From Otariodibacter sp. (GTDB lineage: Bacteria > Pseudomonadota > Gammaproteobacteria > Enterobacterales > Pasteurellaceae): a stretch of 64,000 nt of DNA. This document shows, piece after piece, positions 5,138-11,340 of this stretch. The position numbers and the translations under genes were made by a program. The notes beneath the pieces were generated by a model that was not told the DNA's origin, did not search any database, and saw only the letters and a program-made list of their open reading frames with translations. Numbering within the stretch: the first letter of the stretch is position 1; each line of letters begins with the position of its first letter. Where the stretch lies: the NCBI RefSeq assembly GCF_029256985.1, contig NZ_JARIDQ010000041.1, positions 1 through 64,000 on the forward strand. The letters run 5' to 3'.

Positions 5138-7219
5138 TTACGCATTACTATACTCTGCATTATCACTAATCCAGCGATAAATAAGCTGTTCTGCTATATC
5201 TGGATATTTAGCTATTAACTGCTTTGCGTAAGATTGGACTAATGGGATCATTTTGCGATCACGCATTAAATTAGCAATTTTTAACTCCGCCATTCCTGTC
5301 TGTTTTGTCCCCAGAATTTCTCCCATCCCTCGAATTTGAAGATCCTTTTCTGCAATATAAAAGCCATCTTGACTATCACGTAATACTTGCAAACGCTTTG
5401 ATGAAATTTTACCAAGTGGGGGCTTATACATTAATACACAGTGTGATGCCGTTGCGCCTCGTCCGACTCGTCCTCGTAATTGGTGTAACTGTGCTAGCCC
5501 TAATCGTTCTGAATTCTCGATAATCATTAAACTTGCATTAGGTACATCAACCCCGACCTCAATAACTGTCGTTGCTACAAGCAGATCAATATTCCCTTGT
5601 TTAAACTCCGCCATAATCGCTTGTTTTTCTTGTGCTTTCATTCTTCCATGCACTAAGCCAATCCGTAAATCTGACAAGGCTCGTTGTAAATCTTCAGCTA
5701 TGGCTTCTGCGGCTTGGGCTTCCAATACTTCAGATTCATCAATTAAAGTACAAACCCAATAAGCTTGACGATGTTCATTTTTACAGGCTCGATACACTCG
5801 CTGCACAATTTCATCTCGACGTTCTTCCGAAATAGCGACTGTCGTAATCGGTGTTCGACCTGGTGGTAATTCATCAATAATAGACGTATCTAAATCGGCA
5901 TAAACCGTCATTGCCAATGTTCTTGGAATCGGTGTAGCCGTCATAATGAGCTGATGAGGGTAAATATCCTCTTTTACCCCTTTTTCTCGTAAACTTAAAC
6001 GTTGATGAACACCAAAGCGATGCTGTTCATCAATAATAACTAAAGCAAGCTGATTAAACTCAACTTGATCTTGGAACAAGGCATGCGTCCCAATTATCAT
6101 CTGCACTTGCCCTGTTTGAATAGCTTCTAACTGTGCTTGTCTAGCCTTGCCTTTAACTTTGCCCGCAAGCCAACCTACCTCGACTCCAAAAGGTTTTAAC
6201 CAATTGGCAAAATTATTAGCGTGTTGTTCCGCCAAAATTTCTGTCGGAGCCATTAATGCCACTTGTTTACCATTATCAATCGCTAATAATGCAGCCAATG
6301 CCGCCACTAATGTTTTTCCTGAACCAACATCGCCCTGCACTAATCGCATCATTGGAAAAGGTTTTGCTAAATCTTGTTCAATCTCTTGAGCAACTCGCCA
6401 TTGTGCATTGGTCGGTTTAAAAGGTAGCGTGGATAAAAAGCGTTGCTTTAAATCAGTTTGATATCTCAATGGTTCAGCGTGATGTTGTTGAACCCCTTTT
6501 CTTACCTTCTGCATTGCTAGATTGTGAGCCAATAGTTCTTCAAAAATGAGTCGTTTTTGTGCAGGATGTTCACCATTTTCTAATTGCTCAATACTGGTAT
6601 CTGGTGTTGGACGATGCAGAAATTGTAAGGCTTCTTTCAAGCTATATTTATGAGGATTGAATTCATCGGGCAGAAGTTCTGGTACCTGTACTTTGGACAG
6701 CACTCCTAATGCCTGATCAGTTAATTTTCTCAAAGAGGCTTGTTTCAGTCCTTCGGTAGTCGAATAAATAGGAGTTAAGGTTTCTGCCAATACAAGCGGT
6801 TGGTTCCCTCGAATAATTTGATATTCTGGATGATGAATTTCTGCCATGTAGCGACCACGTTTTATTTCACCAAAGGCTTTAACTCTTGCTCCTATCACTA
6901 AGCTATTTTTCATCCCTGCGTTAAAGTTAAAAAACTTAAGCATGATTTTGCTTGTACCGTCAGACAAGGTGGTAGAAAGAATTGGGCGTTTACCGAATTG
7001 TACTTCCGTAACTAATACCGTGCCTTCGATCGTTGCATAGGATTCTGGACGAAGATCGATAATAGGCGTGATCCTTGTACGATCTTCATACCGCATTGGT
7101 AAATGAAATAAAAGATCTTGTACGTTATTGATCCCGATTCGACCCAATCGTTCTGAAATAGCTGCACCGACACCTGATAAAGCCGTTAATGGAATACCGT
7201 CTAATAGTTGTGAATTCAT
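5138..7219 (-). CDS. recG: ATP-dependent DNA helicase RecG
   Basis: Branch-migration helicase that remodels stalled replication forks and Holliday junctions. The 693 residues match the usual length. An N-terminal wedge/OB domain (about residues 1-150, with DLLFHLPMRYEDRT) precedes two RecA-like domains carrying Walker A GDVGSGKT, the DEQH box in DEQHRFG, motif III TATPIPRT and motif VI QLRGRVGRG. It follows spoT on the same strand after a strong terminator, so it may need its own promoter in the 117-base gap. Confidence 0.97.
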   Translation of the reverse strand: MNSQLLDGIPLTALSGVGAAISERLGRIGINNVQDLLFHLPMRYEDRTRITPIIDLRPESYATIEGTVLVTEVQFGKRPILSTTLSDGTSKIMLKFFNFNAGMKNSLVIGARVKAFGEIKRGRYMAEIHHPEYQIIRGNQPLVLAETLTPIYSTTEGLKQASLRKLTDQALGVLSKVQVPELLPDEFNPHKYSLKEALQFLHRPTPDTSIEQLENGEHPAQKRLIFEELLAHNLAMQKVRKGVQQHHAEPLRYQTDLKQRFLSTLPFKPTNAQWRVAQEIEQDLAKPFPMMRLVQGDVGSGKTLVAALAALLAIDNGKQVALMAPTEILAEQHANNFANWLKPFGVEVGWLAGKVKGKARQAQLEAIQTGQVQMIIGTHALFQDQVEFNQLALVIIDEQHRFGVHQRLSLREKGVKEDIYPHQLIMTATPIPRTLAMTVYADLDTSIIDELPPGRTPITTVAISEERRDEIVQRVYRACKNEHRQAYWVCTLIDESEVLEAQAAEAIAEDLQRALSDLRIGLVHGRMKAQEKQAIMAEFKQGNIDLLVATTVIEVGVDVPNASLMIIENSERLGLAQLHQLRGRVGRGATASHCVLMYKPPLGKISSKRLQVLRDSQDGFYIAEKDLQIRGMGEILGTKQTGMAELKIANLMRDRKMIPLVQSYAKQLIAKYPDIAEQLIYRWISDNAEYSNA

Positions 7220-9836: not shown

Positions 9837-10065
9837 TATTTACTCCACTTTATAAATTTTTAATTTCTAAAAGGGTGTAGATTATACAGATATTAATGCG
9901 ATCTTACAATAAACTCAGCGCGACTCTTGGCAAATAGATATCTTAAGACGATCTGAATTAATTGAAATTAAAATGATCTACTTACTATAATCATTATTAT
10001 TTTTATTGTACGTTTAACTTAAAATAGTATTATCTCGTATTCAATGTGCTAGGAAGGAATTTGTA

Positions 10066-11292
10066 ATGAAAAGAAAAATATTAGCAATTCTGATAAGTTT
10101 TTATGTTTCGATAGCTTATTCTGCCGTTAAAAACCCGACTGTTAATATTGTGGATGAACACTTTAATGCTAAAGTATTAATTGATGATCTACATAGCCCT
10201 ACTAATATGGTTTGGGGATATGATGGGAATATTTGGTTAATTGAAAAGCAAAGTAATCAATTATCCACAGTTAATCCAGAAACTGGCGAGCGTAGCTTTA
10301 TTTATACTCCACCATTAATTTCTACAGAAGCCAAACGACCAATACTACTCAGTTTTGTATTCCATCCTGATTTTTTGAAAAATAAACAGTCTGATTATTT
10401 ATATCTCTATCAAAGCTACAATGAAATAAATGAAGATCAAGGTGTAAATCAAACATGGGGTAAGATTTCACGTTTAACCTATGATAATTCAACCAAGCAA
10501 TTCATTAATGAAATCACACTACTCGATAAAATTCCATCAAATGTAGATCGTCCAAGTGGAATATTACGCTTTGGCTCGGATCAAAAACTTTATCTAGCAT
10601 TAGATGATAACAATGAGCCAAATCAACAATGCGAAAAGACTATGGCACAAAAGATCCCATCAGTTAATGATATTGTGACACAAGATTTCAGTGCTTATCA
10701 GGGGAAAGTATTACGTATCAACACTGATGGCACAATTCCCGAAGACAATCCAAGAATAGCAAATATAAAAAGCCATATTTTCGCTTATGGTTTTCACTTC
10801 CCTAAAGATATGATTTTTAGCGGAGATCACTTCTTTAGTGTCGATCAAGGAACTAAAATTAGTGATGAACTGAATATTATTGAAGCAGGGAAAAACTATG
10901 GCTGGCCAAATCTATTAGGCAATGCTGAAAATACAAATTGTGATGCAGGACTGATACTTGAAAATATGCCAAAACAAACACAACTTCCTATTAAAACTTT
11001 TTCAGATACTATTGAGCCAAGTGGATTAGCTTACTATCCGAAAAATGGAACTATCCCATTCCTACAAAATTCGATCCTGATTACTGGATATAAGACAGGT
11101 ACTTTATATCAAATACCTCTTAACGAAGAGGTGAATCAAGCTAATGGAAATACCATAGCTTATGTTTATTCTAACAACCACTACCAATCTGTGTTAATTA
11201 GCCCTGATGGTAAAAATATCTATATCGCAACTGATAATACCAAAAATTCAGATAATCTTGGGGCAATTATTACTTTTACTCAAAAACCTTAA
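10066..11292 (+). CDS. secreted glucose/sorbosone dehydrogenase-like beta-propeller, PQQ-site residues altered
   Basis: A 408-residue protein with an N-terminal signal peptide (cleavage likely after AYSA), so periplasmic or secreted. It can be aligned along its length with the soluble PQQ glucose dehydrogenase of Acinetobacter as I remember it: FHPDF, YQGKVLRINTDGTIPEDNP, NYGWP, SPDGKNIY. At key positions it differs. The catalytic His is Arg (D161-R162-P), the Arg-Asn pair contacting PQQ is His-Phe (244-245), the two C-terminal Arg are His372 and Gln374, and Gln76 is Arg91. Only Lys343 and Asp161 seem kept. It may therefore not bind PQQ. It stands alone between divergent rpoZ and convergent asnA. 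Start has AAGGA upstream. Confidence 0.75.
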   Translation: MKRKILAILISFYVSIAYSAVKNPTVNIVDEHFNAKVLIDDLHSPTNMVWGYDGNIWLIEKQSNQLSTVNPETGERSFIYTPPLISTEAKRPILLSFVFHPDFLKNKQSDYLYLYQSYNEINEDQGVNQTWGKISRLTYDNSTKQFINEITLLDKIPSNVDRPSGILRFGSDQKLYLALDDNNEPNQQCEKTMAQKIPSVNDIVTQDFSAYQGKVLRINTDGTIPEDNPRIANIKSHIFAYGFHFPKDMIFSGDHFFSVDQGTKISDELNIIEAGKNYGWPNLLGNAENTNCDAGLILENMPKQTQLPIKTFSDTIEPSGLAYYPKNGTIPFLQNSILITGYKTGTLYQIPLNEEVNQANGNTIAYVYSNNHYQSVLISPDGKNIYIATDNTKNSDNLGAIITFTQKP

Positions 11293-11296
11293 AGCA

Positions 11297-11340
11297 AAGC
11301 GGTAAGATCATTGCAAAATTTTGCAAGAATCTTACCGCTT
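11297..11340. terminator. inverted uptake-sequence pair acting as bidirectional terminator
   Basis: AAGCGGTAAGAT and ATCTTACCGCTT make a 12-base-pair stem, and the loop holds a second perfect palindrome, TTGCAAAATTTTGCAA. It lies between the convergent propeller gene and asnA. Both arms carry the uptake core AAGCGGT. Confidence 0.7.

Follow-up and report, generated by a model that had tools for sequence, protein, structure and literature searches.

Does a protein of the PQQ glucose dehydrogenase family, in which residues for the cofactor and for catalysis have been replaced, still work as a dehydrogenase, or is it kept for another purpose? This question is raised by one open reading frame in the 64,000-nucleotide stretch of Otariodibacter sp. 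DNA analyzed here (the window). From an alignment with sGDH, the Acinetobacter soluble PQQ glucose dehydrogenase, the first-pass annotation had proposed a repurposed secreted propeller. Reference residues below follow the mature numbering of sGDH, which served as the comparison protein, and the sister species is G104, the only congener in our genome collection.

The gene, its product and the register against sGDH

The frame is uninterrupted, with an ATG start preceded by a ribosome-binding site. Its product matches Pfam GSDH at 3.4e-40 and is thus a homolog of the six-bladed GSDH propellers; the best match among PDB sequences was Acinetobacter sGDH (1c9u, 2.8e-55). This is the sole GSDH-type gene in the genome of 1.86 Mb, a search for a second copy having found none. 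The features of the locus are the following, + denoting the forward strand.

10051..10058, +, ribosome-binding site AGGAAGGA, with the same letters in G104
10066..11292, +, ORF of 408 aa (by ORF and homology) for a GSDH-fold protein, exported by its sequence, with the dehydrogenase machinery dismantled
10066..10125, +, Sec signal peptide MKRKILAILISFYVSIAYSA without a lipobox Cys, cleavage site placed by eye; the sister also has one
10336..10338, +, Arg91 at sGDH Gln76, weak evidence as most family homologs have His
10546..10551, +, Asp161-Arg162 at sGDH Asp143-His144, general base lost (alignment)
10630..10632, +, Cys189, retained, probable disulfide with Cys292 by co-occurrence
10795..10800, +, His244-Phe245 at sGDH Arg228-Asn229, the pair contacting the PQQ quinone oxygens; His-Arg in the sister
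10804..10806, +, Lys247 at sGDH Gln231 (PQQ contact), common to the sister
10852..10854, +, Thr263 at sGDH Pro248, which binds the catalytic Ca2+ through its main chain; common to the sister
10933..10977, +, pruned loop region that lacks about 11 residues between T290 and N291 and more up to residue 304; sGDH Glu309 lost
10939..10941, +, Cys292, retained, probable partner of Cys189
11005..11010, +, junction D314/T315, substrate lid of about 21 residues missing (C338-C345 pair, Tyr343, Trp346; alignment)
11092..11094, +, Lys343 at sGDH Lys377, retained (alignment)
11179..11187, +, His372-Tyr-Gln374 at sGDH Arg406-Tyr-Arg408, the PQQ carboxylate arginines lost; common to the sister
11236..11241, +, junction N391/T392, 11-residue C-terminal loop missing (alignment)
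11297..11340, no strand, terminator-like inverted repeat AAGCGGTAAGAT...ATCTTACCGCTT where the GSDH gene and asnA converge, found by eye and conserved in the sister

The same register was obtained with phmmer, MAFFT, BLASTP and hhalign, and the key sites are free of adjacent gaps and flanked on either side by kept anchors (S220-H221...G226; N405-x-Y407; D143...G147). In this register, all the proposed substitutions were borne out (Arg162, His244-Phe245, His372/Gln374 and Arg91, with Asp161 for Asp143 and Lys343 for Lys377 kept), and the family HMM alignment that had been proposed as a check, made with hhalign (E 2e-100), supports it. Two of the substitutions need to be qualified. Arg91 is present but has little meaning, since position 76 is His and not Gln in most homologs of the family. 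Arg162 is true of the window species, but G104 has His, so the loss of the general base is species-specific; the codons (CGT against CAT) differ by a single transition, and the H144R call is one base in a draft assembly of 91 contigs. Further changes had gone unlisted: Q231K, P248T, Q168E (Glu184 in the window protein), the deletion of the lid with Y343, W346, C338 and C345, which is gone in both species, and the shortened C-terminal loop. Among the residues of the PQQ clamp (R228, N229, Q231, K377, R406 and R408), K377 alone survives in the window protein, which also keeps D143, G247, E253, Y263 and T348.

The structure prediction suggested at first pass was carried out and agreed with the proposed fold. 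The AlphaFold2 model has a mean pLDDT of 83.9 and a pTM of 0.85, with low pLDDT at residues 283-300 in the pruned loop region, and its top fold match was sGDH (Foldseek, 6.6e-30). Its target-normalised TM to sGDH was about 0.72 (rmsd 4.7-5.8), against 0.90 (rmsd about 2.3) for the intact ortholog of G136 modeled in the same way. Cys189 and Cys292 co-occur or are both absent across homologs, which implies a disulfide, and both are kept here although the lid pair is lost. Taken together, the retained parts (signal peptide, propeller core, E253/Y263 and the Cys189-Cys292 pair) appear to be those that an exported propeller needs, E253/Y263 being by homology a putative structural calcium site. By comparison with sGDH, the lost parts are what a PQQ sugar dehydrogenase needs.

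Distribution of the gene and order of the losses

Homologs at E <= 0.001 were found in 34 of the 140 family genomes, from 15 of 43 genera, and the gene is absent from the other 106. Among the closest known systems are the intact TIGR03606-type homologs of the family (such as that of G136, 48% identical), which are orthologous or near-orthologous, exported and equipped with the Cys189-Cys292 pair, but unlike the window protein they retain the lid and all residues for the cofactor and for catalysis. On TIGR03606 (curated cut-off, 434.55 bits), seven of them reach 510-625 bits, whereas the window protein (302.6 bits) and its sister (318.2 bits) both fall under the cut-off. In searches for closer relatives, the wider contig collection gave only one short Bacteroides match and plasmids gave best matches of about 30%. 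We found no literature on sGDH or PQQ in Pasteurellaceae.

Apart from position 76, the whole cofactor and catalytic set is kept in 28 of 28 aligned homologs from 14 other genera, including H144, R228, N229, Q231, P248, W346, T348, K377, R406 and R408 in all of them. The only exceptions are the window genome and G104, whose GSDH proteins are 75% identical. Among 96 columns invariant in 27 orthologs, 37-38 are lost or changed in this genus; the same treatment of seven other clades gave 0-14 of 96-110. The 57 columns that the genus keeps include many Gly, Trp, Pro and core positions together with D143, E253, Y263, T348 and K377.

Both species changed or lost 26 of the 96 columns identically, and they have R228H, Q231K, P248T, R406H, R408Q and the loop deletions in common; position N229 differs (Phe in the window species, Arg in G104). 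By parsimony, the replacements in the PQQ pocket and the loop deletions therefore predate the split of the two species. Since H144R is found in the window species only, the cofactor clamp went before the general base, and the loss of His144 was not the founding event.

GSDH copies that are fragmentary or bear stops were also observed in G117 (G117:C1:1475862), G123 (G123:C11:11961-12727) and G126 (G126:C11:46710-47955). In these other lineages of the family the gene itself is being lost, which is not the case in the window genus.

Selection and genomic neighborhood

The earlier statement that the gene is under selection relied on the open frame alone. Further support now comes from a comparison of the two species and from a neutral simulation. 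The dN/dS between the window species and G104 was 0.140 (bootstrap 0.098-0.192), which is 1.5-6 times the value of intact ortholog pairs (0.023-0.090). Neighboring genes (RecG, SpoT, AsnA, the AsnC-type regulator and a phosphorylase) gave 0.012-0.031, and two other genes of the window, racemase-like and chorismate-lyase-like, gave 0.09-0.11. With a dS of about 1.0 and a 4-fold divergence of 0.48 (0.28-0.54 in neighbors), the DNA is not unusually old; it is dN that is high. The neighboring proteins are 95-98% identical to their G104 counterparts, against just 75% for the GSDH protein. When the G104 sequence was evolved neutrally, none of 300 runs was free of stops at any of three distances; the runs accumulated about 12-19 stops and their amino-acid identity fell to 0.19-0.60, compared to the 0.75 observed. 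A simple pseudogene was rejected on the dN/dS and the simulation.

The stem branch of the genus carries 1.08 changes per site in the GSDH protein against 0.17 in SpoT, and the branch of the relative G136 carries 0.14 against 0.07. The gene is thus constrained, though less than the enzymes are, and its stem is accelerated; a changed function would be expected to leave this pattern, which is compatible with a weakened function too.

The order recG-spoT-rpoZ-GSDH-asnA-asnC, with names assigned by ORF reading, is common to the window species and G104. In both, the gene is flanked by rpoZ and asnA, with spoT, recG and asnC further out; no redox partner or cofactor gene adjoins it. In G136, an intact ortholog (L036, G136:C2, 11577-12977) was observed between sodium/solute-symporter-like and rpsF-like genes. 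The location of the gene thus differs from genus to genus, and reading its function from its neighbors was given up because the context is uninformative.

Some observations concern the surroundings of the gene. The inverted repeat at 11297-11340 reads as a paired, uptake-signal-like terminator. The DNA-uptake signal ACAAGCGGT occurs in 10 copies in the window (for example at 6792, 7350 and 14234) where 0.3 are expected, and AAGTGCGGT is absent from the window. This signal is of the Actinobacillus type, which points to Pasteurellaceae as the family. In G068, G069, G070, G001, G006 and G041 (L072-L077), SpoT aligned over about residues 2-486 of the query plus a short C-terminal piece; the ORFs are 574-624 aa long against the usual 705 or so, and part of the C-terminal region, at about 480-620, is either absent or has diverged strongly.

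PQQ supply, competing readings and a proposed role

It had been noted that the window contains no PQQ synthesis gene, and this absence extends to the whole genome. PqqC was used as the marker of PQQ synthesis because a PqqE search alone is uninformative. In a sample of 296 genomes of the order, no PqqC was found in the window genome or in any other genome of the family, whereas the positive control worked, with scores above the cut-off in 13 other genomes of the order. PqqE exceeded its cut-off in 0 of 140 family genomes, in a search that had no positive control and was subject to radical-SAM cross-hits. As no genome of the family makes PQQ by these scores, the intact orthologs must depend on an external source of PQQ, like E. 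coli (PMC13088180). A lack of PQQ synthesis was discarded as the cause of the loss, since the intact orthologs live in genomes that are equally PQQ-less.

We then compared the window protein with the closest known systems. The Acinetobacter calcoaceticus enzyme (GdhB; PDB 1C9U/1CQ1) shares with it the fold, about 30% identity and D143, G247, E253, Y263, T348 and K377; in contrast to sGDH, the window protein replaces H144, R228, N229, Q231, P248, R406 and R408 and is without the Y343/W346 lid, E309 and the C-terminal loop. The E. coli soluble aldose sugar dehydrogenase YliI/Asd (2G8S) belongs to the same superfamily and its host takes up PQQ but does not make it; unlike our proposal for the window protein, to which it is about 20% identical, it is an active PQQ enzyme. 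Fungal AA12 pyranose dehydrogenases (CcPDH, TrAA12) are six-bladed propellers which also depart from the cofactor contacts of sGDH, and the catalytic His varies in part of that family. An AA12 enzyme is PQQ-dependent despite missing several of these contacts (PMC4133262), so the loss of contacts alone is not sufficient proof that PQQ is not bound. However, conservation of the R228 and R406 equivalents extends from sGDH and Asd to the PQQ enzymes of fungal AA12 (PMC6881789), and AA12 shows about 94% conservation of the Arg/Asx pair, including where its catalytic His is variable (PMC6881810). AA12 thus keeps the pair and an R406-like Arg and uses PQQ, whereas the window protein has His-Phe (His-Arg in the sister) and His at these sites. 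With both arginines replaced by His in both species and the lid gone as well, PQQ-dependent catalysis is unlikely on these residues.

Three other readings were weighed against a repurposed propeller. That a register shift puts equivalent His or Arg groups in the active site was a caveat of the first-pass annotation, and the window model resembles sGDH less closely than does the model of an intact ortholog, but this explanation fails on sequence grounds and was rejected: the four aligners concur, the sites lie between kept anchors in blocks free of gaps, the register is fixed by 28 intact homologs (one of them 48% identical) and the lid is physically absent. We regard it as highly improbable. 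The protein might instead still be a catalytic oxidoreductase, holding PQQ differently, as AA12 does, or using another small redox or anionic cofactor, with the sister perhaps active. Asp143, Gly247, Thr348 and Lys377 remain in place, the pocket has not lost its basic character (R91, H244, K343 and H372, with R162 in the window species), AA12 enzymes manage without several sGDH contacts and have His at some of them, and the sister retains His144. Against this stand the loss in both species of R228 and R406, of R408, Q231 and P248 and of the whole substrate lid, the disappearance of the general base in the window species and the lack of an adjoining redox partner or cofactor gene. A different cofactor, which had been offered as an option at first pass, is a possible reading, but an oxidoreductase that is still catalytic seems unlikely.

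A vestigial gene would account for the fast evolution on the stem and on both tips, for a dN/dS higher than in intact orthologs and for an H144R change confined to one species: PQQ would be unavailable in the niche, the function lost, and a slow decay would have left the frame intact. The family offers precedents, with 106 of 140 genomes lacking the gene and broken copies in G117, G123 and G126. Relaxed constraint fits poorly, however, with a dN/dS of 0.14, far below 1 at a synonymous distance near 1, with simulations that always gave stops and identities below that observed, and with the conservation of the ribosome-binding site, the signal peptide and the probable disulfide. We consider this reading doubtful.

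The explanation that we favor, and hold to be probable, is an exported non-dehydrogenase propeller, a pseudoenzyme derived from a PQQ sugar dehydrogenase, repurposed under selection and most likely ligand-binding. This agrees with the original proposal in its fold, its export by sequence, its in-register replacements and its selection. The ancestor would have been a PQQ-dependent soluble glucose/sorbosone dehydrogenase, an exported six-bladed propeller. In the ancestor of the genus, the clamp (R228, Q231, R406, R408), the catalytic-calcium neighbor P248 and the substrate lid would have been replaced or deleted, while the fold, the signal peptide, one probable disulfide and the residues for structural calcium persisted. 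Purifying selection would then have maintained the gene, which suggests that the product works as a non-dehydrogenase, its old cofactor pocket or an exposed face holding, outside the cytoplasm, some other ligand or partner that is possibly anionic. The two species alike have a basic pocket, with R91, H244, K343 and H372. Between these species, which are the whole genus sample, pocket positions (about 11 of 15 identical) are no better conserved than the protein at large (75% overall), which makes a new function of the pocket conjectural.

A precedent for the sGDH fold as a binder is HHIP, a secreted propeller that binds Hedgehog and heparin and acts by binding (PMC8660895). It was matched by the window protein in both sequence and fold searches, at about 18% identity. 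HHIP differs in being an animal protein with EGF repeats and an N-terminal domain, and its other domains are absent from the window protein; the precedent concerns the fold and does not extend to the ligands. By this analogy, the window protein may bind a non-PQQ, perhaps anionic, ligand or partner. Whether a bacterial lineage has converted an exported quinoprotein sugar dehydrogenase to a protein under selection that binds or senses without a cofactor, losing the clamp before the general base in parallel to HHIP, is a proposal to which we give even weight for and against. If the pseudoenzyme reading is true, members of this genus would be mislabeled whenever automatic annotation calls the protein a PQQ dehydrogenase, and the intact orthologs, the sister with His144 and the window species without it would form a tractable natural series from quinoprotein to non-enzyme in bacteria that do not make PQQ.
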